This document shows, in pieces, positions 5,262 through 33,772 of a stretch of 64,000 nucleotides of DNA. The position numbers and the translations under genes were made by a program. The notes under the pieces were generated by a model that worked only from the letters and a program-made list of their open reading frames with translations, did no database searches and was not told the DNA's origin. Where the stretch lies: positions 1,832,001 through 1,896,000 of the forward strand of contig NC_087389.1 in assembly GCF_963675165.1 (NCBI RefSeq), read 5' to 3'. Every line of letters begins with the position of its first letter. Positions within the stretch are counted from its first letter, which is position 1. This stretch comes from Halichondria panicea (taxonomy: Eukaryota; Porifera; Demospongiae; Suberitida; Halichondriidae).

Positions 5262-7128
5262 CTATAAATGAAGAATTGCAGCTGGGAAATCTGACTGAAC
5301 GAAAGTAAGACTTTGAAAAAGAGACAATGATTTTACATTGTCTTTTGCAACAAATGTTAAAGGAATCTCTCCGTCTCCTTTAATTAAGCAGCACAAGCGT
5401 TGTACCAAAATTTTTGCAAGTCCCTTTCTTCGATGCTCCTCATGAACAAACAAGTGACCAAAGAATCCTGATGGATATTGCAAGCACCATCCAACCGGAG
5501 ACTTGTCTATCTTCCCAGAGCATGTTGGGAAGATACCAACACTGTGATGTTGCTTGATTGCCTCAGTGAATAAGGATATCTTTTTGTCACGATCCATGCG
5601 ATGCCATTCCACTGAAACCTCTTCTATATGACACTCTTCCAGGCTTCCTAAAACATATCCTTCTGGGCAGGTCCTATATAATGGCATGGTGGAGTTTTAT
5701 ATACACAGTGGACCTTCTTAATACAAAGCTGTGTACATATAGGAAAATCAGATGGGGTTGAGATATTCATATAAGCATCACTTGTGATGGCTTTGTGAGC
5801 TTACATTGGTTCGATGGTGAAAGAACAACTTTCTGGGACATAGAAGCCGATTACAATAGCCATTTGTTCAATGGTAGGATATCTTGCCATGTCATTAGAT
5901 CGTAGTGCTGTCTGTAGACATTTTCCGAGCCATGCATCAACTGTGTATGTATAAATAACAATTCACGTGAAACTACAAATCATTCCGCACATACCTACTA
6001 ATACTGAATGGCACTTCTTTTCAGATGCTACATCTATCTGTTGAATGATTACTGGAACAAGTCCTTCTTTTTTCTCAAGCACACAGTTTTGGAGAGTTTT
6101 CTGCAAAGATATGATAAATTATTGGGTATGTATTATTATGCCAAATGCCTTACAATTTCCGAGCCTTGACGAGATAAGATAGCACTAAAATGAGGCCAAC
6201 CGTCAGTGATAATAGTCCCCTCCACTTTTAAAGACTTTAACCGTAGGAGAGTGTTTACCATAAAAACTTTGTTCTGCATAAAAAGTCAATTAACTACACA
6301 GTACAGGTACTATGTGGGGTGCCGTTTGTGAAAAATTTATGCTGTATATAAAAAGGTTTAAGATAAAGCGTATGTTATAAAAGAGTCGATGTTTACCATA
6401 ACAATAGAGAATTCTGGGTTTTTTAGTAAGTCGATTTAACGGTAAACTGGAGAGTGTAAGGGAGCCAGAGCCGAGGGGTGCTGCACAGAGCAGGCTCCAT
6501 GGAGACCCAATGAGTAACCTTAATGAACTAAGGTCAACTGGTTCCAGCCTCATAACATTGCCTCCTTTTTAAAACATTGACCTTTAGACTCCATTTCATA
6601 ACATCGACTCTTTGGATTTAGACACAAACGGCATCCCATAATAAAGACAAGTCAACACTATGTTTTAATATGGCCGGCTAGCTACTGCCAGCTCAATTCT
6701 TAGTTAAGCATGCATGGCCCGACCTTCCGTTAGGATGGGAGGTCAGGTTTCAAGCTAATGTCAGGATTTGTCTTTGCTGCATTATGTAACGCGATGATAA
6801 CAGCTACGAATATTATTATTCTAAAGAGGGTGTTAACCAAGTTTACCTTGCTTGCGGTTGGACATGACATCACCGATCACGTTAGATAGTTGCAGCAAAG
6901 ACATTAGCTTGAAACCCGACCTCCCGTCCTAATGGAAGGTTGGGCTACGCTCAACTACTTAATAGAGACATTTCTATGCTCTATTATCTACGATCGATTC
7001 CATGCACTGACCCAATTCTGCTCAGGATTTTCCCTCAGTTTTTGAATCAGCTCATCATATTGCAGAACTGCAACATCTTGAAACAGTTGAAAAGACCTTG
7101 CAACGATAGAGCTAGAGTAGGATGTCAT
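5262..7128 (-). CDS. GLYAT-like N-acyltransferase, copy D
   Basis: Five exons on the minus strand: 7012-7128, 6154-6273, 5995-6100, 5805-5940 and 5262-5673. All junctions are GT-AG and phases match, giving 296 residues. This is the length of the glycine N-acyltransferase family (acyl-CoA plus amino acid to N-acyl amino acid). The N-terminal domain keeps the family signature, here TDGWPHFSAI. The C-terminal GNAT fold has the acyl-CoA loop EEHRRKGLAK and the DNVKSLSLFQSL segment. It is the most diverged of the four copies here and has extra residues at the N-terminus and in exons 3-4. It lies head to head with copy A. Intron 1 carries a foldback element. Substrate and cell compartment cannot be read from the sequence. 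Confidence 0.85.
6716..6945. repeat. Foldback element in intron 1 of acyltransferase copy D
   Basis: GGCCCGACCTTCCGTTAGGA at the left is answered by an inverted partner (CCTAATGGAAGGTTGGGC) at the right. Arms of about 60 bp include GTCTTTGCTGCA / TGCAGCAAAGAC and enclose an AT-rich middle. It fits a miniature inverted-repeat transposon. Target duplication is not clear. Confidence 0.6.
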
Positions 7129-8254: not shown

Positions 8255-8956
8255 ACTGAACCTTTGTATGTACCCTTAATCCTCTATATTTCCCACCTAC
8301 TACACTTTTGCCATGTAGTCTAGTGGGGTTTAACTGTCATAAATTGGCACCTCAGGGCTACAAGGGAAAATATGGCTCATAAAGTGGCACCTCAAGCATA
8401 TGCAGTAAAAATAAATTAATGGTGTTTTCGATGAAGGAAAATGTCTTGCATGAGAAACAAAATGTCATAAATGAAAACATAGAGACAGAGGGTGTAGTCT
8501 GTAGGACTAGTTCATCAAAAATTCCGCTGTGTGCTTGCAGAAGGAGCTGCTTTAGAGACACTCTGGGAGAGGGCTAGGGCTCAGGCTGAGCCTTGCTCAC
8601 TAGCACTAGTACTGCACGCACTGCACTAGGCCTGTTCAGCTTCTGTAAAAAGAAGCCAGTTTAGTAATAATGATTATAGGAGTGGCTATTTTAAGCTTAC
8701 CTTTGCTTGCCTACTAGCCTGGCATAGCTGAAGAGAACTGGTCTAAACTGACACCGTCTAGAGCTAGCTGTGTTGTTTCTTCTGGCTGGTTGCTGCGCAG
8801 TAAGTGGAGGGAGGGGCTGGCTAATTGAACAGAGAGGGGGAGTGGCTCTGAACCGTTCGCTTTGAGGGAGGGGCTGGCTGCCATATTCTGTCGCGATTTG
8901 TGAGTGTGCCTCGATCCCAGGCCGAGTTTTCGCTTTTATAACGGTTAGGCGAACAG

Positions 8957-9697
8957 TAGCCTCGAGACCAGGCCGATTAAAATACGGCCTGGTATTGCAT
9001 GTGTAATTAATTATAGGCGTGGCCGTCCACGCCCATGTACTATCTACTAGTTATATGAAGCTTTTTATAGCCTAGCTAGCTAGCTAGCTAGCTGTGGCCT
9101 TCTCTATGGTGTTGTGTTGAGAAGGCTTGCACACAAAGCCAGAAGAGGCTCTCATCTACCTCTATGATGGTTGGATGGTCGTGATGTTTTGAACTGGGTT
9201 TCTGACAGACTATGGCAAGTCTTTGACTTTGTGCTTCCAACTGCAACCATAGGGTCATCTAGAAGTAGATGTGAGCCTCTTCTGGTTTCATAATAGTGTG
9301 CAAACCTCCTCGACAACACAATAGAGAGTATAAGCCACAGCTTCACAGGAGAGAGAGTTTAAAGACTTAAAAGGGTTTCTGACAGACTATGGCAAGTCTT
9401 TGACTTTGTGCTTCCAACTGCAACCATAGGACCATCGTAGAGAGCCTCTTCTGGCTTTAGACAAGTGTGTAAGCCTTCTTGACAACACAAAATAGGGGAT
9501 AAAGCCACAGGAGACAAGTATTTGTTAAAAATAATAGGGAAAGAAACTAGTAAACAAACTAGTTTACGGTATAATTTTACAAAGGTTTACTAACGTGAAC
9601 GAATCCCCATATTCTGGGAGACTCAGTTTGCGCATGTGCACTATCACCCATGCAATAGAGACCAGGCCGTATTTTAATCGGCCTGGTCTCGAGGCTA
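8957..9697. mobile_element. 741-bp non-autonomous transposon, TAGCCTCGA ends, 9-bp target duplication
   Basis: The ends are TAGCCTCGAGACCAGGCC... and its inverse GGCCTGGTCTCGAGGCTA, with arms of about 44 bp. Perfect 9-bp duplications GGCGAACAG flank it at 8948-8956 and 9698-9706. Inside, a block of about 180 bp (TTTCTGACAGACTATGGCAA and downstream) occurs twice, near 9195 and 9375. No ORF of note. The 9-bp duplication is in the range of Mutator-like elements; that assignment is inferred. Confidence 0.8.
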
Positions 9698-9926: not shown

Positions 9927-9994
9927 TCTACACCGTACATTAACTAATACAAGTCATATTTTCTGTACCCTCCACCTTTCATTGTGTCTACATA

Positions 9995-11749
9995 CCGTAT
10001 AGCGCGAAATTTTCGAGGGGCTTAATTTTCACGGATTTTGTGGGTTAGAATTCTACACGAAAATAAGTCCACGAAAATTGTTAAAATTAGCTATAAGTAT
10101 AACCATAGATGTAGGAGAGAGGGATTGGAAACGGAAGTAGATTTCAATGTACTTCACATATGACCTCGATAAACATCCGCGCCTCGCTTAATGAGGGCTA
10201 ACCTATTCCCCAGGAACTTCGCGGGTAACTGAGATTATTGCAAATCTAGGATTTTATGAGTTGTCACTAGTATTCTGTCAAGTTTTCCAGTATCCAGTGC
10301 AACTGTGCTTTATATAGATAGTGAATAACCATTATTCAAGCTCTATTTACCGTTGCAACTATCTTCTTCATTGAATTTAGGTAAGTTTAATCTTGTATTG
10401 TACACATTTATCCCTTTTTATTAATATTTAGGTCGTATACTTCAATATGCTTGTTGGTAAATCATGTGGTATCACCCCAAGCCAAAGAAAATTAGTCATA
10501 CATCAGCTGGTAGAATTTAGTGCTAGAAAAAAAGTTGAATTAAAGAGCACAACTAAAGATCCCTTTTTTGGGAATACGCTAAGCGTTACAGAAATTTTAA
10601 TTTTAGGCATACATTCCCTTATGATTGGTGATCACCCCAAGAGCATTAGTTTTGGATCAGGTGGATGTATAGCTTTTGTGTGCATGAATGTGTAGTCACC
10701 TATTTTTACCTCATATTTGTTATTGGCCCGGTAGTAGATTGTGGTGAAGGGCCTGTAGGCCCGAGATATTTTTAACTACTACAAATGCTGTTTCATCTAT
10801 ATTTTATATAGCAATACCTCGCAAGCCATGAGTACGCTGAAGAAAAGAAGACAGAAGAATACCCCTCCTCTCTACACCCCTACACGTCACCGCCCTCGTA
10901 AATGTTATCGGCTGTTCCGGCTATATATACACCCTTGTATACCTCACCAGCTTCTCTCCATCTAAGACTGTCTGATTAGAGTGCTAAACTAATCATAATT
11001 ATAGCTGTAATAATCATTTTATCGTGTAAGTTTTTGTTAATGTTGTTCGGTTTGATCCCACTCGTTTTACACTTAGAAAGCAACTAGCAGTGCTGTGGAG
11101 TGTTTTGCTGTCTCCAAGTGCATGTAATTATTATACTTAATGAATTGGAAATTGAAATGTATGCTCACCAGCCTAGTATAATTTATATAGAAACTTCGTA
11201 CAATTGATTCATCAAAAGTGAAAACAATTATTAAGAAAGTTACATGGTGTATTATGTATCTTGTCGTGTGAATGATCATGGTTATTGCCTCAAACTAGTG
11301 GACTTCTTGATGGTTTTCTTTTTCGTTGGCAGCAAAAGAGAAGCCTCTGACAGTCACAAATACATTCACAATTTCAGGGAACTAAGCATCCTCTGATGAT
11401 TTTATATCTACTGGGAAACAAGTATCCAATACCACTAGCTCTGCACATTCTCCTTACTATTACCATGTACCGATGCACTGTTGATTGTGTCTCTTTCCCT
11501 CTTGTTTCACCGCTTATGCAATGAGTTTTCCTCATTTGAGGCAAGAAAAGAAGACAAGAAAGCGAGGCGCAGATGTTTTCCGAGGCCCACTTCCGTTTCC
11601 AATCCCTCTCTCCTACATCTATGGTATACGTGCAAAGATTTAAGGCGTGGCTTCCAGTTAGCAGTCATTCCGCGAACATTGTGCAACGAAATGGCTTTTA
11701 GAGGCCAATCCACGAAATATAAGTGCCTCGAAAATTTCGCGCTATACGG
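9995..11749. mobile_element. 1.75-kb element with CCGTATAGCG ends and TA target duplication
   Basis: Left end CCGTATAGCGCGAAATTTTC and its inverse at the right are flanked by TA on both sides (9993-9994, 11750-11751). Homology between the ends extends about 150 bp, through GATGTAGGAGAGAGGGATTG on both arms. The interior has an 82-codon frame at 10447-10695 that I do not recognise, so no transposase is visible. A TA duplication suggests Tc1/mariner-like mobilisation (inference). The same end sequence occurs near 18913 and 51312. Confidence 0.65.
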
Positions 11750-11772
11750 TAGTTGCCCGACAGGGCTCCGCC

Positions 11773-11813
11773 TAGCCTCGATTCCAGATTTAATCGGCCT
11801 TGAATCGAGGCTA
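11773..11813. mobile_element. 41-bp micro-transposon with perfect 9-bp target duplication
   Basis: Starts TAGCCTCGATTCC and ends GAATCGAGGCTA, leaving a core of about 17 bp. GGCTCCGCC lies on both sides (11764-11772 and 11814-11822). Ends and duplication length match the 741-bp and 1,330-bp members in this window, so it looks like a complete insertion reduced almost to its two termini. Confidence 0.75.
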
Positions 11814-11968
11814 GGCTCCGCCCAACTAGTACATACCTTTAAGTCATAGATCATGCGTAGCGTTATATATATCAGGACATGCTGGTTATTATACGTACCC
11901 AGAGTACCTGGCTTTTGAGATAGACTACCGTATAAATCTTGCCTAAGCTAGCTAGCTAGGAGCTAGAA

Positions 11969-13202
11969 ATGACATACAACCCTAGGTCTTTCGAAGCTGT
12001 TCCACATCTGCAATTTGATAAGCTGATTCAAAAACTGAGGGAAAATCCTGAGCAGAATTGGGTATAATTATAATTATGTCAGTGAGACGATGTATTAAAT
12101 ACTATGTAGTCTACCTATGCTAGATATCAATTGCTATCTAGCTCAACTTTCCATGGTTGAACAATAATTTAATATTGTCAATAATTATTGTAATAATTTA
12201 TTATAATATTGATACCCTTATTTAAAGTGAACTCTTGTACTTGGCTATGCAGACCAAAGTTTCTATGGTAAACACTCTCCTACGGTTCAAGTCTAAAGTG
12301 GAGGGAACAATTACCGTTGACAGCTGGCCTGATTTCAGTGCTATCTTATCCCATCAACACTCGGAAATGGTGAGGCATTTGGCATAATAGTTATACTCTA
12401 AAATAATTATCTCTGCAGGGATCTTTTAAATGCTGTGTGCTTGAGAGAAAAGAAGATCATGTTCAAATGGTCATTCAAGAGATAGCAAAAAAGAAGTGCA
12501 AGTACATAATGGGTAACGTGCAAACTATCATGTGAATTGTTTCCTATGTTGTACATGCACAGTTGATGAATGGCTCGGAAAAGATGTACAGGCAGCACTA
12601 CAGTCTAATGACATGGCAAAAGGTCCTATCATCAATACTTATATTGCCTTCTACCTCCCAAAAAGCTGTGATTTCATCGTTAAACCAATGTAAGCTCACA
12701 AAGCCATAGTCAAGTTTTTTTTACCCAATCTCCTAAAAAAAACTTTGTTTTAACGTTCACGTTGTTATTCCCATAATTATATAGGACCTGCCCAGAAGGA
12801 TATGTTTTGAGAAGCCTGGAAGAGTGTCATATGGAAGAGGTTACAGTGGATTGGAGTTATATGGATCGTGACAAAAAGATATCCGTATTCACCAAGATAG
12901 TCAAGCAACATCACAGTGTTGGTATCTTCCCAATATGCTCTGGGAAAATAGACAAATCTCCGGTTGGATGGTGTATGCAATATCCATCAGGATTCTTTGG
13001 TCACTTGTTTGTTAATGAGGAGCATCGAAGAAAGGGACTTGCTAAGGTTTTGATACAACACATATGCTGTTTAATTGAAGAAGATGGAGAGGTTCCTTTA
13101 GCATTTGTTGAAAAAGACAATATAAAATCACTTTCCCTTTTTCGAAGCCTTAGTTTTGTTCAGTCAGATTTCCAAGCTGCGACTCTTACACGCTTTTGTT
13201 AG
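11969..13202 (+). CDS. GLYAT-like N-acyltransferase, copy A
   Basis: Five exons: 11969-12061, 12253-12369, 12419-12512, 12563-12689 and 12785-13202. The product is 282 residues and all phases agree with copies B, C and D. The start is MTYNPRSFEAV. Exon 2 holds the family signature VDSWPDFSAI, close to vertebrate GLYATL proteins. Exon 5 carries the GNAT domain, with PVGWCMQYPSG, the acyl-CoA loop EEHRRKGLAK and DNIKSLSLFRSL. The family transfers acyl groups from CoA to glycine or other amino acids. The start codon faces copy D across 4.8 kb of transposon-filled DNA. Exons show no damage. Confidence 0.88.
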
Positions 13203-13419
13203 TCAGCTGTTTTGCATGCAGTGTCTGTATATTTTTTGGCCTGTACATTCCTAGTGTATTATTATAGGTGTATTCTTTCAAATGTAAATAAATTGCTAGA
13301 ATATTGATCAGGGAAAAAGGACCAAAAGGTACCGAAACAAGCGAGGGAGGAGAGCTGCAAGTTAACCCGTCACAACGTCATTCACAGGTATACATGTGTA
13401 GATGTACGATCTAAGTGTT

Positions 13420-14290
13420 TAAAGGTTTTGCAGAATTCTTGCAACAGGGCTAAACAGACACAGCAATGACTTCCATATATTATAGTGTACATGTCAAGGT
13501 ATAAATTATGTATAATTATTTGAATTGAAAGATGTCCTGTGAGCCTAAGAGAGCATCAGCTTATTCACAAGATTTAATTAAGGTGGTGGATGGTGCACCA
13601 GGTGGAAATTCAGGGCAAATATTGTTGTGAAGTTGGTGTGTGCAGAACTGTTGGCATATCTGTGTATTGACTGCATTATCAGTTGCTTTTAGTACCATTT
13701 GGAGGTTTTTGCAAGACAGTCAATGGTTCTTGTTGCAAAGCAAAGAAGTGAGAGGAGCATACCTTCAAGACATGCACATTTTCAATGGTCATCCTGAAAT
13801 GTTGATGAGACTGGAGGCTGACAGAAGAAATTGCCAGAGGAGATTTGTAAGGCCTAAGGGGCAAGCCTCCTGTCTTCAAGCTTATCAATATCAACCAATA
13901 TACCCATACCACTGTTTGGAGGGTGTTTCGTTTATCAACTGTTCCGGTATCATTGAAAAGAGCAACAGTTCTGAATATAAACTGATGCTCTCTGGACATC
14001 TTTCAATTCAAATAATTATACACATACCAGGTATCATACAGGATTTTGAATTAGAGGGGATTTTGAAAAGTCACCAAAACGTTGGTCAACAGTTATTTCA
14101 GTACCCTGCCGGCTATGGACACTCAGTCGTACGACTGAGTACCTGAATGCAAATTTTAGGGGGGGGGGGGGGGGGGGATTGGAGCCAGAGGGGGATAATC
14201 ATATATCCCTGTATGGTGCATATACATGTACATGTACATTGTATATACTATAATCAGCAGTTGACTTCCATAATTATATGGAAGTCCTTA
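13420..14290. other. Insertion present only in unit A
   Basis: Unit B joins the flanking sequences with about 70 bp, so roughly 0.8 kb was gained in A (or lost in B). The tail of the block (GAATGCAAATTTTA, a run of about 19 G, ATTGGAGC) is an inverted match to 17270-17340, and GTATCATACAGGATTTTGAA resembles 51150-51180, so it is probably repeat-derived. A hairpin ACTCAGTCGTACGACTGAGT lies near 14118. A 168-codon open frame crosses it but has no family features. Confidence 0.45.
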
Positions 14291-14552
14291 TTATTATGCA
14301 TTTAATACAATGATAATTATTGTTCTGACAGTACAATGTGTGATGTGATGTATATGAATTCTGCACTAGCTGTTCATGACATTGTGACACATTGATGTAC
14401 AGCTCTCCTCCCTCGCTTGTTTCGTGACTTTTGGGTGCTTTACGCGTCAGACAACAATTGGTGGAAGAGTTCCAGAAATACATGTCCTTAGCTTGACTGC
14501 GTACTAGAGACTTTAAGAGGCGCCAGTGATGTTTTAGCCCATCAAAGCTGAT

Positions 14553-16255
14553 GGAGGGCAACATACAACGATACAACAACTGGAGAGAGAAATCAAACGG
14601 TGGGTGTGCGAATTTGAAAATAGCGACTATACCTTCTTACGTACTTGCATCTGTGCAATTTAATTATCCTCAGTCCTTTACTTTATGAGTCCCCTTACAC
14701 GTACAAGCTATGCCTGCTTGTATTTAATGTTTGAGGCATGGTATTGGTTAAACAATTGTATGCATAATACCTGAATACCTGTTCAATCTTGACAATACAG
14801 TACCTTTTTGATTGACCTCTATTTATATCAAACAAAGCTATCTCTGCCCTCCACAGGCTGAGGTATTATAGAGAAGGACAGCTGGCTAGGAGGAGGAGGA
14901 GAAATCTACACTGGTTGAGGATAAAAAAAGGTCACGTGGACAAGGTCAAAGTGGAGCATGAGGTGGATGGCAAGCTCAGTTTCAGCAATTGATGCTGAAA
15001 GAAAAAAGTGAGATTATAATATCTACTGTCCTATTTTTATAGTCTATGTACAAACCACTATAGTAGCTAATAAGTGGGAATACTCCTTAAACACTTGTGT
15101 ATGTGTCACAAGAATCAATATGAGGATACTACCTCATTTTATGAGCCTGCTCCTCACGAGTACAGTCAGGTTCCTGTCCCAGCAGGGTTTCATCTAGTGG
15201 AGTGGGCTGGGGTGAACCTTCCCCCCAAAATGCTCATCTTCCCCCCCTCCCCCCCCCCAAATGTTTGTAGAATTAATGACATCATCACATTTAATCCTAG
15301 ATGAAACCCTGCCCAGCTGGGGCAGGAATGCTCAAAAGCATGCTCCATTTGTCTTTCTGCTTTCATGGTGGCCTGGGATCGAGGCTAGCTCCATGCAAAC
15401 AACACAGGCTGGACAAGGTTGGTATATATGGGGAAGTATATAGAAGTATAATATATTAAGACAGAGTGGTAGGTTTTCTAAACGCAATCATACCTGATCT
15501 ATATGTATATGTGTATTTGTTCAGCACCTCTCATGATCGACTTGCCTATATTGCTATATAGCACATTGTAGTTGTGTATAATCAAGGGCATATTAAGAGA
15601 AGAGGGCATGCAAATCACAATGTATACTGTACGTGTATGCGTTAGGCCCTGATAATTTTTTTCACCCAATCTATTCTTTAATTCTTGAAAAATGTGCCTA
15701 TTATTCTCATAAAAAATCTGCCCAAAAATGTGATTATATAAACAAAATTAAGACTCAATCCCAGGCCGAGTTTTCACTTTTATAACGGTTAGGTGAACAA
15801 CTATACAACTATAGGGCTACACACAACGACACAAGCCATAATTCATGTATCACGATTCTCATTCTTATATTCACTTTGCACCTTCAGGAATTTTTGCCGT
15901 GAGAACATCCTTATGTAAAACTTAATGATCTTTACCAAAAATGTACATTGTTGCCAATTATTCATTGACACCTATTATGCTAAAATTATGAGCATAATTT
16001 ATCAGGGCCTAGTATGCGTCGTATTATTGATGAGTCAGCAGGATATGCTAGGCCAACCACCCACTAGGGAATAGAGTAAAAACAAGAGTATAAAGTGCAC
16101 GTGCAATAAATTCTTGGACATAAGCCCCCGCCCAATGATACAATAGATTGTAGTTGCATCTCTTCTTTTTTACGCCCTTGCTATTATCTATGACAGGCTG
16201 TCTTCAACTGAGGCTCATGAGGAACACTGTGGCATTGACAGCTAGGTGTAATGAT
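14553..16255 (+). pseudogene. Inverted relic of the LEKR1-like coiled-coil gene (unit A)
   Basis: Pieces of the neighbouring minus-strand gene reappear on plus. 14553-14610 matches the end of exon 2, 14865-14985 matches exon 3 (GTGGACAAGGTCAAAGTGGA shared), 15095-15425 matches exon 4 in fragments, and 16190-16255 matches exon 7 (GACAGCTAGGTGTAATG). They are interrupted by stops and small rearrangements, and other repeats lie between them. The same relic follows the acyltransferase in units B and C, so it predates the duplication. Confidence 0.7.
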
Positions 16256-17557
16256 CGAGCTGATGTACAGGCCATTGTCAGTAGTGTACTGTTTTCTGGA
16301 GTGTGGTTTGGACTGTGCAATGTTAAAGTTACCGTGGATACTTACTTGCCTGCACTTAGAAATCGTCTCAGTAACTTCCTTGAGATTCTGTTTGTGTTGT
16401 CAATCATAAATCATACATTTTGTTATGACATCATTTAATTTTTAGATTTCTAGCAGAGGAGGAATGCCAGGGTAACGTTTAATAAAAAATTAAACATTCT
16501 TGTTCTGTGGGTCTTCTCAGAACCCTTTTAGTTGATCAACATGCAGTGACGAGGAGTGCTGGCTGTTGTGTTGGTGTTTAGTCTCATCGGGATGATCCAC
16601 ATTCCCAACGGTCTGTGAGGCCAAACCCTGCCCTGTGAAGACTGGTGCTTGTGTATTCATTGTCTACGTTCTATACTGCTCATCTTCATGTTGTTTCAGG
16701 TATGTTGTTAGCTTTTTAGTATGTAATTTAATATGGCCATATGCTTTGCTATAATTTTTTTAGATTGAGAAACTAGTCTCTTTTTGTATCGGAATCTCTT
16801 AGTGTTTGTAGCGCCCCGAGTTTAGTTTCCGTATAGCGCTCTATTTTTGAGGAACTAAAATTTCGCGGATTTTACATTTATGAGGATTGAGGATTGACCA
16901 CACCTTGACAATAGAGAGGTCTTTACAATACCGGAAGTATCAAAATTTCAAGATCAATCTGCCAAAACCGCGAAATTTTAGTGCCTCAAAAATATATAGA
17001 TAAACACAAGTGCAAGCATGCAAGACTTTTCAGTATAATTATACAGACTTTTCCTGTGATAGTTTCAGTTTAAAATGTTTACAGTGTTTGTAATTGAAGT
17101 GTTTCAACCAACAATTATACCTTTCACAGACGATGGATGACACAAATGCTGTTCCTAACAGTTTATAGATCCTAGTCTCAGTAATAACAGGAGCATTAAC
17201 TCTTGGTAATAATATGTGGCAGCTGCCAACAGCAACCCCATTTGACTCCCCAGGGACTGGGTGTCATACAGGGGGAAAGGGGGGATATCCCCCTCTAGCT
17301 CCAATCCCCCCCCCCTAAAATTTGCATTCAAGTGTGCTTGTAGTTGCCAATTTTACATACTAACAGTTGAAATAGCAAAACTGTCTAGTTGCTTTTCTTA
17401 TTTCCCCCCTCTACTTCACAAAACCCTGCTCCCTTGGGCTATCATTGCGTTATTATGTAGATTCTGTGCTGCTCAAATGGCTATACATATACGCATGCAT
17501 ACTGTCTATACATTACATGCTCATTGTATGCATATTTATACCTTATCTTTATCGCAT

Positions 17558-17606
17558 CTACAGTTTGTGGCTCTGGTGCACCTATCTTCTGTAACCCTAT
17601 AATAGC
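17558..17606 (+). pseudogene. Fragment of the bHLH gene's exon 2 (unit A)
   Basis: CGCATCTACAG followed by GGCTCTGGTGCACC and TGTAACCCT matches the intron 1/exon 2 junction of the bHLH gene at 49237 (minus), including the splice acceptor. Only about 50 bp is recognisable. Surrounding DNA (16.3-18.1 kb) is non-coding, with a one-ended CCGTATAGCG repeat near 16829. Confidence 0.55.
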
Positions 17607-20496
17607 TTCCAGATAATTTTAGTTTGAGAAACAAACCTGCACATAATAATTATTATGTACATGCAGTCATGTATTTTATAAGCTGAATCTTTTTGATCTC
17701 ATGATTGGACTAACATGCCTCATGCACGTTCTTATAATTATTTGTGTTCCTACTGTAGATGTGCTTATACGTACATGATTGGTCTGCAAGAACATGATTT
17801 ATAATCATGTTCATTATCACATGCATGCAGGCACAGACTCGTGTGATAATCTTCAGTGTCCATAGGATAATAATAATATCATAATTATGCAGTAACAATT
17901 TTACAACTTCATAATTTATAATTTACGCAAGTACTCTTGCAAAATAAGGACTAGTACTATACAGACTCTATTTTAATGTACGTGTGTATAATTACCACAT
18001 GCATGATCTATTTATAATTAAAAAGTTGTGTATACGATGAGAAATGAGGATAGATGTAGATGATCGAAATAAAAAGGAATTAAGTGACGTATACTTGCCT
18101 GGGAAAATGTAATCAGGTTTTTGTCTATAATCTAATACGTTTTCTTGCTCCGTTTTGATGAAGCCTTGGCTAATGACAGCTCTTCTGTTAATCTCTCTCT
18201 CTCCTCACATTCCTTTTCAACTATCGCTTGAAGCACTGAAATCTGTACATTAATACAAGGGATGACATGTCACCACACGCTGATACTACAGTAGACTTGA
18301 TATACCGGCCATTTGGTTTGGCACGGATTGCTAGCTAGATTACTGCACAAAACTCGCCCTGAAATGCGGCCACTCGCTATTCCGTAAACAACGACAATTA
18401 TTTGATATTTGATAATTATATAGAGAATAATACAGGCAAATGCCTACCTTCAAAATGTTATCACGGAAATGTGTATAATAAAACCACATCATATAGCAAG
18501 TCATCCACGCGTACAGCTTAAAGGATCAGGTAAAGTATCCTATATAACCTTACATACCTCTTGGTATGCCTCAGAGAGCTTCTCCTCGAGAGCCACCCTC
18601 TTTTTCTCGGCCAATTCCAACTTCTTCCTCACTTGGTGTGTCTCAACTGATGCTCTCTCCTCCAGGCTTTTCCTGTCACGTTTCTCTTGGAGTAGAGACA
18701 ATTCTAGCGCTTTGACAGAGCTCAAGTGATTTGTCATTTCCCTGTCTCCTATGTCCTGTGGTATCTCATAAAGTGTGTAAGGGTGGTAGCTATAGTTACC
18801 TTCTCTTTCTGTAGCTGTTCTTGGAGAGATGAGACCAGTCTAGTCTTTTCCAGTTCACAAGCAGTCAATGTTGACGTCAGCTGTAACAAACGGTAGCACT
18901 CAAAAATTAATATACCGTATAGCGGATAATTTTCATGGGGTAAAAAATTCTTTCAACTCAAAAACTAGCCTCGATCCCAGGCCGCACTGAAAATGGGCCT
19001 GGTACCATTGAAACTAAAAACTGAGTAGCATAGTCCTACTCTTGGTCATACTAGAAGCAATGAGCCAGAAACTTTTTGTGAAGGCGGCTACTCGAAAACG
19101 GTGATTTTCGTGAGTAAACATTTCACGAAAATTACCCGCTGTTACGATAAAATGCACACACAAAATAGCTATATAATTATAGTACAATATAATTGCCGAT
19201 AAATTATACCTCAATTAGCTTTGCTCGCATTTCTTGCTGTTTTGAGAATTGAGTCTTAACAGTCTCCTTGAGAGTAATGAACAAGCAGCAAAAAATCATA
19301 AAAACACAATCTATTACAAATAACAGACCATTTCATGCTCAGTCTTGATTGCCTTGCGAGCACTTTCCAACTGATACCTATGTTCTCTTCTCACTGTCTC
19401 TAACTCTTGGGAGTGCTTCAACTGTAGAGCTTCCATTTTCTTATGGCCACAGGTCAACTCCTCTCGACAGCTGGTCATTGATGACTGCAACTCCTGTGAG
19501 TGCATGCGGAACAAATAATAGACATACATTTTCCATCCACCAACACTCGTCACAAGGTTTGTGAAGTTGACCTGACAGTTTCAAAGAAGTTACTGATACC
19601 ATTTCTAAGTACATGTACATGCAGCTGACGCTTGCCACAGCCGGGCTGTAAGTGTGCATGATAATTTTAATAAGAGGAGGGCTACATGTCAGACTCACAC
19701 ACACCCATCTCAATGCTGTGACAATTTACGTTAATCCACATACATTGCATATTATACCTTTCGTGTCTGTTCCAGTGACTTTAACTTGTGCAATGTTTTC
19801 TCGAGTGTGGCTTGGACTGCAGCTTTGCTAGACTCCAACGCATTGACCTGGGTCTCTAACTCCCTCACTCTCCTGCGATAGTATAAACAAACTCCTGATA
19901 ACGTATACACATTAAAATCAAGGGATCTAACAGGAACGCATTGTAAAATAAGATGGATACGTACTACATCGCTTGCTCTCTCTATATACCTGCCAGCTCC
20001 ATTACACCTAGCTGTCAACTCCACAGTGGTTTCACGAGCCTCAGTTGAAAACAGCCTGTCATAGATACAATTACAATGTAATAATATCACGTTGTCAAGG
20101 TAACAAGGGTGTAATAAAAGTCATACAACCTCTCTGTGTTATACTATTTTTATTACACGATCACACAGCCTTGAGGCATGATTTGGTAAGGGGTTGTAGT
20201 GATATAAAACACATTATAGCATGAGAATCCTTGTGTTTTATTTAAATATATGCAGGCAATTCGTCCTCATGCTTGTGCCTGTATACTTAAAATAGAACAC
20301 TCGAATAATTATTAGGCAAGTCAATCCTCAGACTGAACATTACTGTATATGTTCTAATTTATCGGACAGCAACAAAATCTTGGAAATTGTCTGGGTATAA
20401 TAGGGCGTATGCATTACTACAATTCCTATTATTAGACTTCCGGTCGAAGGGACAGGGCGTTAACTAGAACACATTTTTGTAACAAATCTAATGTAA

Positions 20497-21861
20497 ATGG
20501 TTCGTTTTTGCTGTGTTCCAAACTGCTCTAATAGGTCTGATAGAGAGTCTCACCTTTCCTATTTTGGACTACCTCTAAAGAACAAGTCTTTACTCAAGAA
20601 GTGGATTCACGTTGTTTGTCGAAAGAATCTGTTGATCAACAGCAACACCAAAATCTGCAGTGAACACTTTGTCAACGCACATGGCAGGCGTCTCTACTCA
20701 GATGAGGTCCCCAGTTTGCTTCTACCAGTTGTTGTAAGGGCTCAGAAGGCTAGAAAGGAACCAAGAGAGCGCAGTTTACTCCTACAAGAAGAAGGCTTAG
20801 ATGAATTGGAATTGGAACAAAAAGATGTGTCAACACAAACGGAAGAGGTTGACGTTGAAGTACCTGGTGAGCTGTTAAGAATGAAAAAAATGGTTGCTAA
20901 GCTGGAAGCCAAAGTACATGAACTAGATACGAAAATGAATCGGCAACTATTTCGGTTTTCTTCAATCAAAGATGATGATGTGAAGGTAGCGTTCTATACT
21001 GGGTTTCCTACGTCTTCATGTCTTAAAGCATTCTTTCAGTTTCTTGAACCAGCAGCTAGTGACTTAATCTATTCTAAGAAACAAGAAGAAAATCATGTTC
21101 GAACAGGAGAAGAAACTAAGCGCTATCGTCCAAGATCATTACCACCCATAGAAGAGATGTTTTTGACATTAGTTCGTCTTCGCCTTGGACTGCTAGAGCA
21201 AGATCTTGCTGATCGCTTCAGTGTATCTCAATCTACCGTTAGTAGAATTACTTGCACATGGATCAATTTCCTCTACTTGAAACTAAAACAAATTCCTATG
21301 TGGCCTTCAAGAAACCTTGTGAGAGCAAATATGCCAAAACAATTTAAAGAACAGTACCCTACAACACGAGTAATAATTGATGCTACTGAAATATATATCG
21401 AACAACCTCACCTACCTGAACTGCAACAGATGACTTTCTCTAATTACAAGAATGATAACACGTTTAAGGTTTTAGTTGGGATCTCTCCTGACGGAGCAAT
21501 TACTTTTGTCTCGTCTTTGTTTCCTGGAAGTATTTCTGATAAGGCATTAACGAGGGAGAGTGGGATATTGGACTTGTTAGACAGTGGAGATTCGGTAATG
21601 GCAGATCGAGGAAGACCTTCTGTGAGGGGTGTACGTCTTAACATTCCACCATTTCTTAGAGGAAAAAAGCAACTTTCAGAGAAAGAACTAGTAGTTACTC
21701 GACGCATAGCATCTTTGAGAATTCATGTGGAACGTGCCATGGAGAGAATCAAAAATTTTCACATTTTTGACAAGAGTTTACCTGTATCTTTAACTGACAT
21801 TGCAGATAGAATTTTTTGTGTGTGTTGTGCTCTATCTAATTTTCAGCCACCTTTACTTTAA
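20497..21861 (+). CDS. THAP-domain DDE transposase of the ISL2EU element
   Basis: A single exon of 454 residues. Residues 1-85 form a THAP zinc-binding domain (CCVPNCSNRS, conserved W, CSEHF), expected to bind the element ends. A charged linker and short coiled coil follow at about 100-150. A helix-turn-helix of the DDE_4 type (QDLADRFSVSQSTVSRI) lies near 240. The catalytic domain has D295 (IIDATE), D370 (MADRGR) and E412 (HVERAMERIKNF), with SISDKALTRESG between. All catalytic residues are present and the frame is unbroken. The ATG lies 95 bp inside the left terminus. The stop faces the nuclease gene, 132 bp away. Confidence 0.9.
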   Translation: MVRFCCVPNCSNRSDRESHLSYFGLPLKNKSLLKKWIHVVCRKNLLINSNTKICSEHFVNAHGRRLYSDEVPSLLLPVVVRAQKARKEPRERSLLLQEEGLDELELEQKDVSTQTEEVDVEVPGELLRMKKMVAKLEAKVHELDTKMNRQLFRFSSIKDDDVKVAFYTGFPTSSCLKAFFQFLEPAASDLIYSKKQEENHVRTGEETKRYRPRSLPPIEEMFLTLVRLRLGLLEQDLADRFSVSQSTVSRITCTWINFLYLKLKQIPMWPSRNLVRANMPKQFKEQYPTTRVIIDATEIYIEQPHLPELQQMTFSNYKNDNTFKVLVGISPDGAITFVSSLFPGSISDKALTRESGILDLLDSGDSVMADRGRPSVRGVRLNIPPFLRGKKQLSEKELVVTRRIASLRIHVERAMERIKNFHIFDKSLPVSLTDIADRIFCVCCALSNFQPPLL

Positions 21862-21993
21862 AAAAATGATTTGATCATTTCATTACATTGTTTAAAACAT
21901 GCACGGTATTAAACATTGATGGAAAGTAGAATAAGAAACAGAAACAAAATTAGATGTACTTCATGCAACTAATTATAGTCACAACAGCATTGA

Positions 21994-24900
21994 TCATAAA
22001 TAATAACTAGGTTTATGTTGTGGGTCAATTAATTCTGGTAGAATATGATCAAAAAAGTATGTGTCTAACTTTGGAATAAATTCCTCTTGCCAATGCTCAT
22101 CAGGTGATATCCGTTCAACAACAACACCTTTTGAGGTATAAACACAAAAGTCACACCACTGGGCAGTATATCGTGTAACATAGAGCTGTAGCTGGACTTG
22201 GTGGTAGTACGAGTGATTCCTTTTAAGAGATGGTATACCATTCACAAGTTGTAAGTAAAACCTCTTCTCTTTACACATTTCCTCAATCGTTTTATCTGCC
22301 ATACTGTAGGGACATTTGAATTCCGCAATACCAGTAGGAGTACAATCAATTGACAGATCAAAAACCCAAGCATCAGGGGACGCACCTAGCCAACATTTGT
22401 CACTATCAACAACAAACCCTGCTTTCTTTGTGTGTAAGCCTACATGGTCATTACTTCGCATGTATTTCTCATACTCAATGCGAGCGTTTTCCTCGTGATC
22501 TGTTCCCCACCGAATCGCTTTCGGAATGTGCACGAAGGGCTTGTAGTAAATCGTACACTGAAGAAGTGCTGGTGTCTTTTTTACTTGTTGAAGGATGCGT
22601 CCACATTTAGACCCGGTTATTCGGCTCTGTCTTTCGGCAATCCATAAAGTGCTCGAACTTTGATCTCTAGTTTTCATTTCCAAATCTTCCTGCTGTTTCT
22701 TACTAACAGAGAGCTTGTCTAAAATGTCTTCTGCGGTTACTCTCTCAGTGACAAACACTTTTAGAACATCAGCAGAATCACAAAATTTGACACTATCATC
22801 ACACAATCTCACAGAACCAGGCTTCAAACAGTACGTGTGGTCATTAGCAATTTTGTCAAACGATGGAACAAGTAAATTTAGAAGAGCACATGGTTTGTTG
22901 ATGCATAGCAACTCACAACGAAGAGCTTCCAGTGCCAACTTATCAACTTTACGAGTGTGTTGTGGTCGTGGATCATAAACCATTTGTGAACCCTTTCCAC
23001 GAATCTTTGAAGGTAACAGCTCACGCCGACGATCACCTAACTTTTCGACAGGAATTGGATGCACTTTTCGGCCACGAGGACGGTTCCACTGCTGTAGTTG
23101 GTCTGTACAGGTAAGACTTTCAGGTGCATCTTTAATTCTGAAAAAATCAGCCAGTGCATACGAGAGTGCCCCAATATGCTTACAGCTTCCACAAGGTCCA
23201 CAACCAGCAGGACAACCACACTCAGCACTCAAAATGTCATAGTTGTTCCTATTTAAGCACATACAATACAGTCGATCCTTCCTCATCTCAGGTAAACACT
23301 TAGATTTTATATACACTTTGTCAGTTATAGTAGCTACTTCAATGTCTTGAACGTGTCCACATCTAAATAAATTCTCCGCTGACTTACTGATCGATTTAAA
23401 GTCTCCAGCTGGTAGAGAGTCCTTTAGACAACGTGTCACAAAATACGACATAATTGTGCTCATAGTGAACCGTGGATCCGTTGGATCATCTATATCCTTA
23501 TCTCGAGAGAAGAAAGGAAGAATAGGAATCCAGCCTCTATCGGGATAAATGCATTTCTGTGCAGGAGGATCAGTAACTTCTGGTTCTTTAGTAGAAGCAT
23601 TTGTCCATCCATACTTTATACAAGCGTTTACTCTATGAATCAGTGAAGCGAAAAGTATTTGTAAAGTTAGATAGATCTAGTCTGATAATAGCCTCGATCC
23701 CAGGCCGATCCGTCTCTAATTGAACGCTAGGTCGCCTCCTCGGCCTGGTATTGATTGTATCTGGGCGTGTATCTGGGCATGTGCTGTGGTTGCTGTGGTT
23801 GCTCAGGTATTCGCTAAAAAAGAGCGAATACCTGAGCAAGGTGGAGCGAATAGAACACTAATAGTGCATGTAAGCATACTTACTCCGTAAAATCACCGTT
23901 AAATCACAAAGAACTCCGTGTCATAGGTCTATTCTTTTAGTTTGTCATAGATATAGGCTTAGCGAGCTAGAGTGTGAGGAGCTGTCTTGTGCGAAGGAAG
24001 AAGGAGCATCACTCTTGTGAAAGAACAGACCTAGGTTCTCAAGTTTCTGCTATCAGTGGCTACCTTTGATTGACTACACAATTTAATACAAGCGCTTGAT
24101 TAGACCATTGATTGCCAGATACACTTGGTAGAGTCTATCCTCAGACTCTGGCCATCGAGATCTTGTATACTATGCTCAGGGGTGTCCACAAGTGGCTGGG
24201 CCTGGGATGTATTGTCAAGGTGAGCGATATAAATCAATAATACCCTTTCATCATTGGAAATTGTACACTATAGCCTATAGCCCAATCCTTGGTATCTGGA
24301 TCAAGATATGACATTACGGCACTGGCACTGGTGTTGTGTTAGCCTCCTTCACCGGCCTTCAAGGAAGTTCGGCCTGGGATCGTGGCTAGTTTGTGTGGAC
24401 CATCACTGTGAGTTACAAAATGTATAGTGGAATGGTGAATTTAAGTTCATACTAATTTGTATACAGGAGCAAAATGGAACCTTCCCCTCCAACCCCCGTC
24501 GTACTCCTCCTAGCTGATGGGTGTGAACTCATTGAAGAGGATGCCCCAGTGCCACTCATGTCCTTCCCAAGGGTCCGATCTTATAAAACTACCTGCACTA
24601 AAACTACTGACGTAGAATGGCTCTTTCAACACTTGTGGTTGCTATCCTGACCAGTGACGTCAGGATTCTACTGTCTCTTGATGCACTGTGAACACACAAT
24701 CTTCGTTATGCCACCTGAAGGCTTAGCAGGCATGTCCAACGCAGTATTTATTAAGTCTTTCTGGAAGCTCTTGTTTGAGATCTTCGCTTCTAAACATCTG
24801 CATTTATTATGGACGCAGTACTGCTGTGCACAGTATTAATTTCTAGTGTCATTATATCATTATATCGCTGTATTTTTAGCCAACTGTGATAAACTGAAGA

Positions 24901-25184
24901 TTTTACAGTACATAGCTGATACTTACCAGTTTCCGGTCACGCCCAGATACAATCAATACCAGGCCAAGGAGGCGACCTAGCGTTCAATTAGAGACGGATC
25001 GGCCTGGGATCGAGGCTAGTCTGATAATTGCACTCTATAGAGCTGCGTATTTACTTACTTACCGACTGACTAGATCACTTTTATTTCCTTTCGTAGGAGC
25101 TCCTCTCTCAATAAGCCAGGACTTCAACTGGGCTAGAGTGCCTTTTTCTGGTATAAAGTTACTACAACTTTGTACAGAATTCAT
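21994..25184 (-). CDS. SAP - SWIM - YqaJ nuclease of the ISL2EU element
   Basis: Two exons, 25063-25184 and 21994-23632, join in phase (CG|A) to give about 586 residues. Exon 1 encodes a SAP-like DNA-binding helix pair (TLAQLKSWLIERGAPTKG). Exon 2 has a SWIM-type zinc finger at about 179-193 (CGCPAGCGPCGSCKH). It also has a YqaJ-like PD-(D/E)XK nuclease at about 375-560, with RITGSKCG, WGTDHEENARIEYE, GASPDA and the catalytic EFKCP. A Met at 23463 would give a shorter 489-residue reading, but the upstream 56 codons are open and protein-like, and they continue into the SAP exon. The 1.43-kb intron is almost entirely the nested element; without it the intron is about 100 bp. Confidence 0.85.
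23689..25018. mobile_element. Nested 1,330-bp TAGCCTCGA element in the nuclease intron
   Basis: The ends are TAGCCTCGATCCCAGGCCG and its inverse; the inverted arms run about 80 bp. A perfect 9-bp duplication GTCTGATAA flanks it (23680-23688, 25019-25027). The interior lacks a transposase. It contains a 23-bp hairpin near 23800 and exon-like sequence: a GT donor context near 24219, and an acceptor-like CAG just before a 58-codon frame at 24474-24650 (MEPSPPTPVVLLLADG...). This could be captured host sequence. Confidence 0.8.
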
Positions 25185-27127
25185 CAGATAGAGTATGAAG
25201 TCTTACCACTCATCTATGAATTCATTAATAACTTAGCTCTATTCATTTCCTACTCTAGTCCCCTCGACCGGAAGTTCTAATAATACGAATCGTAGTAATG
25301 CATACGCCCTATTGGAACAGATTTTTATAGAGCATGCGAAGTGTCTGGAATAATTAGAACAAGCAAGCAGCTGCATGTGAGCTAGCTAAGTTTAATAGAA
25401 CAGTGTACGACTGAATAGTTGCACTAGCTATCTAAAACTAGCTACTCAAAGCTATCTAACTGTAGCACTCTAAGTCTTACTTGCCGTCTATGAATGTAAC
25501 TCAACTTTTCAAGGTATTGTCCGGATATTTATGTAATAATAAAGCACTGGAGTGTCCGTTGTATTAGAACAACAAAAATTTCTCAAAAGAGTTCCCGGTA
25601 AATTAGTATACGGTATACACATAATTATGTACCCACACACACGATGGCGTTAGAGAACCTAACACTTACTCAAGTTTCCTCTGCATTTTCTGTATATCTT
25701 CATCTCTAGCAACAAGTGCCGTTTCCATATGCCTGGTTTTTCCAATGAGATCTGTACAGCAAGAAGAATGGAGGAAGAAACACAGGCTGGTGTATTTGCC
25801 ACAAAGATTTAAGGAGGTCATGTACTGCACATGGCATACACATTCACCTTGAACCTCTTGCTCGTATTTGAGAGTGGAGTGTTGTTCCTCTCGGAGCAAC
25901 TGTTTCAAATTGCTCTCAGTCAACGTCCATTTTTCATTCTGCTCTCTCATCTTACTCTTGATACACTCATTTTCTGATCTTAAGCTCATCACAGCTGGAT
26001 AAAATAGAAACAGTCTTTGTTTGTAAACGTATGAATACCAGTTTATGCATGGTTTATGTGCAGTATACTAGATTAATATTTAAAAAAAACACTCATAAGA
26101 AGGCTTCGTTAGAAGCAGGAAATGTGTACTGTTTTACTTTCTATACTCTACCACACCAACCTTGTTCAGCCTGTGTTGCTTGCATGGAGCATGCCTCAGA
26201 GCACTCCTGCCCCAGCTGGGACAAGGACCTGGCTGTACTCGTGAGGAGCTGGATTATCTCGACCTTAAAATGAGGTAGCGCCAAGAACCCTGCTTGAATC
26301 TTGGTAAGGTCATGCCTGATCTGATTCTTGTGACACCTTGAAAGAATAGATAAAGAACAACAATGCGCTAGACACGTACAAGTAATAATAATAATTATAG
26401 CCCAGCGTGGTTAATTTCTTGTGCCTACACGGACTATTAAAATAGGACACTAATAAACGAAGACATTAACTAATCTCACTCGTACATGGAGAATGCCTTC
26501 TCTTTCTCTTGCTGGAGCTTCAACTGCTCTAACTGAGCATGCAATCCACTCAGCTCCGCCTTCATATCCCTCAATTCATGCTCCACTTTGACCTTGTCCA
26601 CCGTAGCATTGTTTTTATCCTCAACCAGTTTAGATTTCTCCACCTCCCAGCCAGCTCTGTCCTTCTCTATATACCTCAGCCTGTGGAGGACAGAGATACC
26701 TTTGTTTGATACAAAAACAGGTCCATCAAAGAGCCATCGCATTTCCTCGGGGTTTCAGATTGAGCACAGATATTCTTTCTAGATACAGCATTAGGTAATC
26801 AGGAGGCAAATATACCTTGTGCATGTATAGGTAACTATTGCACAGAAGTGAGTACAGAGTTAGTTCAGACATGTATGTAAACTCTACTTTAATATGCTAT
26901 TGGTGTCATTGCATTAAATTCAAATTCAGGCTGCTAGTACACCCACCTTTTGATCTCGCTCTCCAGTTGTTGTATGTTTCCCTCCAGCTTTGAGATCTCA
27001 TGATGTACTAGATAGCTCACTCCACAGAACTGACACACTGTCTCCTCACGGGGCAGCCGCTGTATGTCTGCATACCAGGGTCCGGGTGGGAGAGAGAGAG
27101 AGAGACAATAATTATAACTACGATGTA

Positions 27128-28068
27128 TAAAAATGGTGCAAAAAATGGAACCTAAGCATGAACAGAAGCAAGTGCAAAGTTATGCGTTTTTATGGGCCAG
27201 TACTGGATGAGACCAGCAGATACGAGATAGACGGAACAGAAATAGACTTCACGGATAATTACAAGGATCTGGGAATACTCGTATCAAACACACTGGACTG
27301 GTCTAAACACTACTCAACCATATGCTCAAAAGCCTATGGGGCTATAAACCTTATTAGAAGGACTATTACAACCAACAATACTCAAACAAAAAAGAATCTT
27401 TATTTTGCCCTAGTCCACTCTCACCTAACATATTGCACTCAACTTTGGAGACCACTCCTTTTTAAAAATATTTCAAAGCTCGAGAGAATCCAGAGCCTTG
27501 AAGAGCAACGAACTACATTCTCGGGGATAACTCCTACAGTTATAAACAGAGGCTAACCACACTAGGTATGATACCCCTCATGCACTGGATGGAGCTTATG
27601 GATTTACTGTTCCTGGTTAAAAACCTCAAACAACCACAGGACAACTTCAACATCCTAAACCACATTCGCTTCGTCACTACATCGTCGAGACTAGGCAGTG
27701 ACCACAGACTGGCACACAACTATACAAGATGTAATAAGGCAAGACACTTTTATTTCAATAGAGTAGTGCGTCTGTGGAAAGCAATGCCACGCATTGATCT
27801 TCAGATGTCGTATCATGGAATAGAGAGTCTCCTGTCAAAGTTCTTCTGGGAAAATTTTATTAAAAACTTTGATCCAGACAACCTGTGTACATACCATGTC
27901 AAATGTCCCTGCTCTAACTGTCTCATCCACCCTAAAATAGTTAACCAGCTGGACTTTAAGACTGGCAGTGGGCTACTTACTCTCACTACAGTGTACATTT
28001 GTATACAAACGTACTCAGTTTTAATTTTTGTTCAGCACCACTGAAAAGTTTATTATAATAATAATAAT
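27128..28068 (+). mobile_element. 5'-truncated non-LTR retrotransposon (LINE) fragment
   Basis: The plus strand encodes the end of a reverse transcriptase: NRSKCKVMRF, YKDLGILVS, LVHSHLTYCTQLWRP and, in another frame after a frameshift near 27500, GMIPLMHWMELMDL and RHFYFNRVVRLWKAMP. The 3' end is an ATAATAATAATAA tail at about 28047-28066. Unit B lacks it (GATGTATA continues to GTACACTGC), so it arrived after the duplication. It lies antisense in intron 1 of coiled-coil copy A. The frames and tail resemble the CR1/L2/Jockey group; the exact clade is not determined. Confidence 0.8.
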
Positions 28069-28371
28069 AAAACGTACACTGCATGTATATAAAGGCTATT
28101 CAGCAGTCCATGCTGGGAGTGGGAACAGCGGACCAGACATATTAAATGTCTATGATCAGGGGGTGATATGTAAACTCTAATAGACTATGTTGACATGTCA
28201 TATCATCCCATAGATCTACATGGTAGATCTACACAGATCTACTTGTTGATGCTATTATTTTAATTTGCAACTTTAGCAACTCCAGGCTAAAGTTGCAAAT
28301 AGCATTATTTACCTTCGGGGAGATCTTTGACAGGTTAATATCTCTCCATGGAAGTAAATAAATTTAATACA

Positions 28372-28505
28372 TGGAATTTAATCGGAAGGATTAAATGTGG
28401 TTAACAGGTGACGTACAGATACCAATTGCAACCAACACGGGCATGCGCAAGGAACACGTGGTCAGGCAGTCAGTGCAAGAACAAACGAATTAGAAAACTT
28501 CTCTT
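28372..28505 (+). repeat. Ngaro split repeat A1
   Basis: 134 bp beginning TGGAATTTAATCGGAAGG and ending GAAAACTTCTCTT. Repeated as A2 at 33639-33772. Confidence 0.88.
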
Positions 28506-28534
28506 GATCTATCATATAATTCTCAAGATTTCTC

Positions 28535-29758: not shown

Positions 29759-29984
29759 AACCATAGTCAATAATTATATATTTTGATTGGGTTTTTTCAG
29801 GTATTTATCAGTGTTATGCATTTATCACCGTTATGCCCCATCGGGGTATCCTTTTTTCTCCCATTATATATCCACGGCATGTGATCAACTCATTGTTATG
29901 TATTTCCTCTCATTACTATTGCTTCAACGTTATAATATTGGCAGTGACACTCAATTAATACGAGGAAATAAACGCTGCTGTCAC

Positions 29985-30595
29985 CAGGCATGCCCCTGGT
30001 CAACGCACAAGGCACGTCCTTGGCTATGTAAATACTAAATCATACACCAGGCATGCCCCTGGTCGGCATCCGATCCGACGTTAAGTAGGTCAGTACAAAG
30101 ACCCACCAGGCATGCCCCTGGTCAACGCACAAGGCAGGCTAAGTAAATAATAAATCATACACCAGGCATGCCCCTGGTCGGCATCTGATCCTACGCTAAG
30201 TAGGTCAGTACAAGCACACACCAGGCACGCCCCTGGTCATATCAATTAAGGCACCAGGCATGCCCCTGGTCAAACACACATCAGGCATGCCCCTGATCAC
30301 GTCTCACATTGATTACACAGTACACTCAGGGCATGGCCAATCCCGCCCATTCTAGGACAGCTTCCCATATCTATCACACACCAGGCATGCCCCTGGTCAA
30401 CCCACTTAAGTATTAGACATGGTACACACTAGGCATCTGGTCATCGGCATCACACGCCAGGCAGGCCTTTGCTAATTAGGTCCTGAGAAGGTACCGTTCA
30501 CACACTAGTGAGCCCCCAGTCATTTCTCGGGAATCACGTATAGGTACACCTCAGACACATATCGAATACACACCAGGCATGCCCCTGGCTGGCCA
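29985..30595 (+). repeat. Array of CCAGGCATGCCCCTGG motifs inside the Ngaro element
   Basis: About nine copies of this near-palindromic 16-mer lie between the gag-like and RT regions (near 29987, 30047, 30104, 30162, 30222, 30252, 30281, 30382 and 30574). The first four alternate with two spacer types (TCAACGCACAAGG and TCGGCATCCGATCC), giving a period of about 115 bp. Confidence 0.75.
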
Positions 30596-33237: not shown

Positions 33238-33417
33238 AAGGTTTAGTCAAACTACTTGGGTATGGTTAACGTTCTACCTTACTTATTTTACTTACTTACT
33301 TTAATTGTTTGGAGAAAAAAAAAAAAAACTTATCTCTGCGAGCTAATTTTACTTAATACATTTGGCACCAACCTTCCCTCCAAACAATAATTATCTCATA
33401 ACTTTAAAGTAGAGCGA

Positions 33418-33772
33418 GAGAAAACGCAGATAGCTAGTAATCTACCCGTGTCATAACTAAGGGTAGAAATACATTCCGTATGTTTGCTTTCGGGGTTAAC
33501 AATATCCGGGGATCAAAGCCTCAGAAGAGGCCTACGCTAACGCATAGCCCTTGCATGGTTGGCATGTTCTAAAGTTAAAGGTGGCATGTTCTAAAGTATT
33601 CTCTCGATGTTATTACATGATAGGTGCACCATGTTAAATGGAATTTAATCGGAAGGATTAAATGTGGTTAACAGGTGACGTACAGATACCAATTGCAACC
33701 AACACGGGCATGCGCAAGGAACACGTGGTCAGGCAGTCAGTGCAAGAACAAACGAATTAGAAAACTTCTCTT
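33418..33772 (+). repeat. Ngaro repeats B1 and A2, adjoining
   Basis: B1 (33418-33638) starts GAGAAAACGCAGATAGC and ends GCACCATGTTAAA. A2 (33639-33772) follows directly and repeats A1. The abutting B1-A2 order is diagnostic for Ngaro. Confidence 0.85.

Follow-up and report, generated by a model that had tools for sequence, protein, structure and literature searches.

A complete transposon anatomy in 41 bp

Within the 64,000 nucleotides of Halichondria panicea DNA analysed here (the window), one unit of only 41 bp (TAGCCTCGATTCCAGATTTAATCGGCCTTGAATCGAGGCTA, positions 11773-11813) has the appearance of a complete transposon insertion, which raises the question of whether it was mobilised at this size or shrank where a longer element had inserted. 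The left tip TAGCCTCGATTCCAG is joined to the right end ATTTAATCGGCCTTGAATCGAGGCTA, the inverted ends are identical at 12 of 12 positions and the flanking 9-bp target duplication GGCTCCGCC (11764-11772 and 11814-11822) is perfect, so that both tips and the duplication are intact. This agrees with the original prediction of a complete-looking copy, apart from a first end that was written there with 13 letters. The two flanks are the only occurrences of GGCTCCGCC in the window when both strands are counted. The unit is near-palindromic (30/41 positions are self-complementary) and too short to have coding capacity; the two open frames that cross it (11439-11849 and 11507-11947) are taken as chance.

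When the window was scanned for units between 20 and 400 bp long whose inverted ends match at 10 or more of 12 positions and whose flanking 9-bp duplication is exact, low-complexity words being excluded, seven rows were returned. These comprised the 41-bp unit and six rows from one 75-bp tandem array (approximately 44.87-45.09 kb), which were rejected as transposon units because all of them derive from the array. Fifty first-order Markov simulations of the same scan gave a mean of 0.04 units per window and a maximum of 1, a rate at which a perfect duplication around 12-bp ends favours a collapsed family copy. TA-anchored TAGCCTC...GAGGCTA pairs spaced 20-150 bp with up to two mismatches number 25 in the window, and this number alone is within chance (100 simulations gave a mean of 11.2 and a maximum of 25). 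Four of the 25 pairs are flanked by 9-bp duplications in which no more than one letter differs, compared with no pair in the 100 simulations; the four reduce to three independent elements, of 41, 124 and 125 bp, once the segmental duplication of the 125-bp element is discounted.

Short palindromes of this general form do occur elsewhere. Pairs of TAGCCTCGA...TCGAGGCTA spanning 26-56 bp end to end were found in unrelated contigs, in 8 viral and at least 119 bacterial stretches, as would be expected if the unit had arisen by chance as a palindrome or were some unrelated hairpin, for example a terminator. However, among the 132 such matches examined from those listed, none has a 9-bp flanking duplication with fewer than two mismatches and only two have one with exactly two, and the window itself holds further members of the family that share these tips, against the simulated rate given above. 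Taking the tips, the duplication and the family core together, coincidence is very unlikely, and we give it next to no weight. The viral and prokaryotic palindromes, among the matches listed, look unrelated to the family. Two further scans of viral contigs for similar short units gave no stretches, and two more viral stretches were rejected as they lack a TAGCC tip. A search of bacterial bins for host contamination found the family motif without mismatch in 0/6 and 0/84 genomes, with G001, G003 and G004 present in both sets.

Family members and their surroundings

The terminal inverted repeats of the 41-bp unit are common to longer elements in the window. The closest relative in end sequence is a 741-bp element (8957-9697) with 37-bp identical inverted ends and a perfect 9-bp duplication, GGCGAACAG. 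A 1,330-bp element (23689-25018) likewise has a perfect duplication, GTCTGATAA, and both are confirmed as the relatives that had been proposed from the ends and the duplication length. Shorter members are the 125-bp element at 18966-19090 (duplication CTCAAAAAC/CTCGAAAAC), which recurs at 40977-41101 through segmental duplication, the 124-bp element at 62017-62140 with TAGCCTCCTTCGCAGCCTC ends (duplication GTAATACAG/GTAATACAT) and a diverged 106-bp element at 51606-51711. The target duplication therefore matches at 9/9 positions in the 41-, 741- and 1,330-bp elements and at 8/9 in the 124- and 125-bp elements, and none is recognised for the 106-bp element or for a 49-bp unit described below. 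The family tips are of at least two kinds, TAGCCTCGATCCCAGGCCG and TAGCCTCCTTCRC, plus variants, and the 125-bp and 49-bp members each carry one tip of each kind. Single ends at 15387 and 37420 represent one duplicated locus; the former was considered as a fourth tiny unit and rejected, having seven duplication letters and no left tip. The 41-bp copy thus belongs, as had been claimed, to a family of transposons whose insertion duplicates 9 bp of target, and consists of almost nothing but ends. We consider it probable that it is a non-autonomous member of this DNA transposon family (TAGCC... inverted ends, 9-bp target duplications) that arose as a collapsed derivative.

The 9-bp duplication fits the Mutator-like (MULE) superfamily, although it is not diagnostic alone; maize Mu, for example, makes 9-bp duplications according to the text available to us (PMC2774946). 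No MULE transposase was found among 20 ORFs scanned with Pfam (18 of the 28 ORFs of at least 130 aa, plus two shorter ones), so the superfamily cannot be named. An autonomous MULE partner could lie outside the window. Literature searches for the family sequence and for short MULE palindromes found neither, which does not prove their absence. A search for the shortest or smallest transposon or MITE gave nothing on this question in the titles and opening lines of the abstracts, no transposon paper was recognised among the matches listed for tiny, micro or palindromic MITEs, and no match listed for Amphimedon MITEs with 9-bp duplications contains Amphimedon.

The motif CCCAGGCCGAGTTTTCRCTTTTATAACGGTTAGGYGAACA at 8906-8956, 15750 and 37735 occurs as related copies that hold most of the 741-bp element's target sequence, and the copies at 15750 and 37735 (one duplicated locus) look like empty sites. 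Adjacent to the 41-bp unit, an inverted-repeat element of approximately 1.76 kb (9993-11751), whose 45-bp ends (TACCGTATAGCGCGAAATTTTCGAGG...) are 87% complementary, ends 21 bp before it. Segmental duplications of approximately 82-98% identity relate 12207-27130, 34438-44854 and 45396-47235 and supply paralogous sites for several insertions. Open reading frames at 12777, 35664 and 46364 within the window resemble the GNAT (FR47-like) acetyltransferase of 5262-5696, an inverted copy on which the Pfam assignment is based. The 75-bp tandem array extends over 44858-45149 and includes identical stretches. A retrotransposon at 28368-34371, which we take to be DIRS-like, has a reverse transcriptase, a Phage_integrase match and split direct repeats (28368-28505 with 33635-33772, and 33418-33638 with 34151-34371); sequence comparison suggests that a paralogous copy near 45327 lacks it. 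Scans of the window for tRNA genes and Rfam families gave no matches.

The 1,330-bp element is nested in an ISL2EU-type transposon (20402-25310) that encodes a THAP/DDE transposase (20497-21861) and, on the minus strand, a YqaJ protein. It is inserted between the SAP and YqaJ parts of the latter, of which a SAP-like piece lies near 25062-25202. Pfam matches to THAP, HTH_Tnp_4, DDE_Tnp_4 and YqaJ were obtained on the host element, which has an AT duplication and a clean empty site, AATT, in a paralogous copy at approximately 42440. A survey, in its available text, characterises ISL2EU by a transposase with THAP and DDE domains, a second, YqaJ-containing protein and duplication of AT within AATT (PMC4482050), all of which the host, an ISL2EU-type element, shows. 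The group including ISL2EU was not found in sponges, according to the same portion of that survey (PMC4482050).

Hairpin ends and the origin of the core

The sequence between the tips of the 41-bp unit points to its source. Over the right arm, TAGCCTCGATTCAAGGCCGATTAAAT, the unit agrees with the 741-bp element's tip at 22/26 positions and at 6/7 in the loop, compared with 16-19/26 positions and 1-3/7 in the loop for nine other tip-like sequences, second-kind tips and duplicate tips having been excluded from the comparison. On sequence similarity, the core is shown to be made of the family's own end sequence.

Behind a first-kind tip there is often a loop, which varies between elements, followed by an inverted copy of the tip sequence, CGGCCTGG or GGCCTGG. 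This inverted copy is present at 8957, 9697, 18966, 23689, 25018 and 34394 and absent at 15387, 24388, 51606 and 51711; several family ends can therefore form a hairpin. Compared with shuffled sequences, the predicted hairpin fold is strong at 8957 (z -4.45, with 0/200 shuffles as good) and clearly better than shuffles at 34394, weaker at 23689 (z -2.41, 5/200) and weak at 18966 (z -1.92, 7/200). Several members have such a small hairpin (CCAGGCCG-loop-CGGCCTGG) at both ends, so that the left hairpin's outer arm and the right hairpin's inner arm are direct repeats of each other. In the 741-bp element these are two plus-strand copies of the 12-bp sequence GAGACCAGGCCG, one at 8964-8975 in the left outer arm and one at 9658-9669 in the right inner arm, and the predicted product of collapse between them is 47 bp long and has the two tips end to end.

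The 41-mer aligns to this predicted product with 36 identical positions, five mismatches and two gaps, of 5 and 1 columns, a score of 25 that was reached by 0/20,000 shuffles of the 17-bp core. The corresponding products of other members align less well, scoring 15 for the 1,330-bp element and at best 9 and 11 for the 106- and 125-bp elements.

We suggest that the 11773 locus originally received a longer insertion, a member of the 741-bp subfamily, by means of a transposase encoded elsewhere, and that this insertion subsequently lost nearly its whole interior. The direct repeats would anneal, for instance during gap repair aborted after excision or by slippage, and the intervening DNA would be deleted to leave a tip, one hairpin and a tip (47 bp in the case of the 741-bp element), after which approximately 6 bp near the centre of the palindrome would have been lost to give 41 bp. 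Because such a deletion is internal, the duplication and both tips survive. Several observations do not fit easily. The 41-mer is not a plain collapse product, since it has TT in both arms where the 741-bp element reads GA; one arm is further changed relative to the 47-bp product, and of the six positions that are gone at least four come from the left arm. Moreover, a repeat of 12 bp is present in the 741-bp element only, the corresponding repeats of the 1,330-bp element being 9 and 7 bp. On balance, a longer insertion that later collapsed in place remains the explanation we favour, with some reserve.

The near-palindrome could also have been generated without collapse of a whole element, if a template-directed or hairpin-repair event copied a pre-existing family end back on itself. 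The 30/41 self-complementary positions noted above, together with a TTC at positions 10-12 of both arms that occurs in no other listed tip, are suggestive of such an event, but copying back alone leaves the perfect 9-bp direct duplication outside both tips unexplained, and we regard this origin as improbable.

Movement at small size and its implications

Collapse in place has further to account for the recurrence of end-to-end units in the window. A 49-bp unit (24340-24388), located inside the 1,330-bp element, has one TAGCCTCCTTC tip and one TAGCCACGATCCCAGGCCG tip and no clean duplication; a candidate duplication was rejected, as 3/9 letters agree ungapped. It folds no better than shuffled sequence (z -0.59, 54/200 fold as well), which counts against collapse. 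Another unit, at 34394-34439, consists of an intact left tip, a loop and GGCCTGGGATC; the right tip lacks its final 7 bp, and the complete unit would measure approximately 53 bp. Its right arm reads GGCCTGGGATC, as in right tips, while inner arms read GGCCTGGTA. The original prediction held that a deletion derivative with leftover internal sequence and no short companions would never have moved as such. Leftover end sequence is indeed present in the core, but the 49- and ~53-bp units show that the 41-bp unit is not alone in being short. A clean duplication is seen only at the 41-bp unit, and the cores of the other two are unlike its own.

These units lend some substance to a different order of events, in which an element collapsed first and was then cut and pasted by the family transposase as a palindromic two-tip element of 41-53 bp. 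The 41-bp unit has intact tips inside a perfect duplication, compared with 8/9 for the members of 124 and 125 bp; the two further units lie within the same 64 kb and have similar loops (10/13 positions over a stretch chosen by eye, matched by 18/100,000 shuffles). Of the eight independent loci (41, 49, ~53, 106, 124, 125, 741 and 1,330 bp), three are end-to-end units, a high proportion if every one goes back to a rare in-place deletion. In addition, the 34394 unit is missing from a paralogous copy at approximately 45380. However, that copy does not qualify as a clean empty site, because its adjoining 18 bp also differ, the 49- and ~53-bp units lack clean duplications, and there is no second copy of the 41-bp sequence in the 64-kb window. 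As one parental loop is retained on collapse, the similar loops could also have arisen if members of a single parent subfamily collapsed independently.

Size is a further difficulty. The minimum spacing of tips reported in vivo for bacterial cut-and-paste transposons is 64-70 bp, which exceeds 41 bp, and excised elements of Paramecium are nearly absent between peaks at 26-28 and 45-46 bp, according to the part of that study accessible to us (PMC3464196). Given these published limits, two transposase-bound ends would be hard pressed to meet across 41 bp. They were established with other enzymes, however, nor are they absolute. Loops of approximately 45 bp have been proposed in Paramecium (PMC3464196). 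Elements of the forbidden size are excised there once an ISWI remodeller is lost, and in Blepharisma there is no such size gap and the first peak is at 65 bp, as far as the available sections of the relevant paper go (PMC9942856). Collapse followed by movement is a possibility that we rate well below collapse in place, and a nuclear family of 41-53 bp palindromes mobilised as such by a 9-bp-duplicating cut-and-paste transposase, for which bare tips some 40 bp apart suffice, seems slightly more doubtful still. The anatomy of the 41-bp unit is exactly what in-place collapse would leave, and the window alone cannot show movement at 41 bp.

The 41-bp unit is similar to MITEs and other internally deleted cut-and-paste derivatives in its intact inverted ends, intact target duplication, lack of coding capacity and core drawn from the ends of a parent, and probably also in needing a transposase supplied from another locus. 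MITEs usually measure about 100-600 bp and occur as many like copies, whereas this unit is 41 bp and has one copy in the window. Among other very short elements, the internal eliminated sequences (IESs) of Paramecium are flanked by TA, while bacterial REPINs and REP sequences are linked to RAYT transposases, enzymes acting on single strands, and, to our knowledge, have no 9-bp duplications; nor do we know of inverted tips combined with a 9-bp duplication in the double-hairpin elements of fungal mitochondria. Paramecium IESs are alike in being transposon remnants, decayed to as little as 26 bp, that are still cut at both ends by a transposase-like protein; in contrast, their excision is developmental and they are described as unique-copy, 41 bp falls between their size peaks, and insertion at such a size is not reported in the portion of the study available (PMC3464196). 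REPINs and REP sequences resemble the unit in being tiny, palindromic and non-autonomous, with a presumed origin in element ends, as described in the excerpted source (PMC3116915). The fungal elements are also small, hairpin-forming and potentially mobile, but they are mitochondrial and GC-rich in the part of the account available (PMC10085805).

Movement at 41 bp, if it took place, would push down the lower bound known for the distance between transposon ends and inform how a transposase handles DNA far below its persistence length. Collapse in place would instead suggest a simple rule, in which the direct repeats carried by hairpin termini allow an element to be reduced to nothing but its ends in a single step; the smallest non-autonomous elements could plausibly arise by this route.
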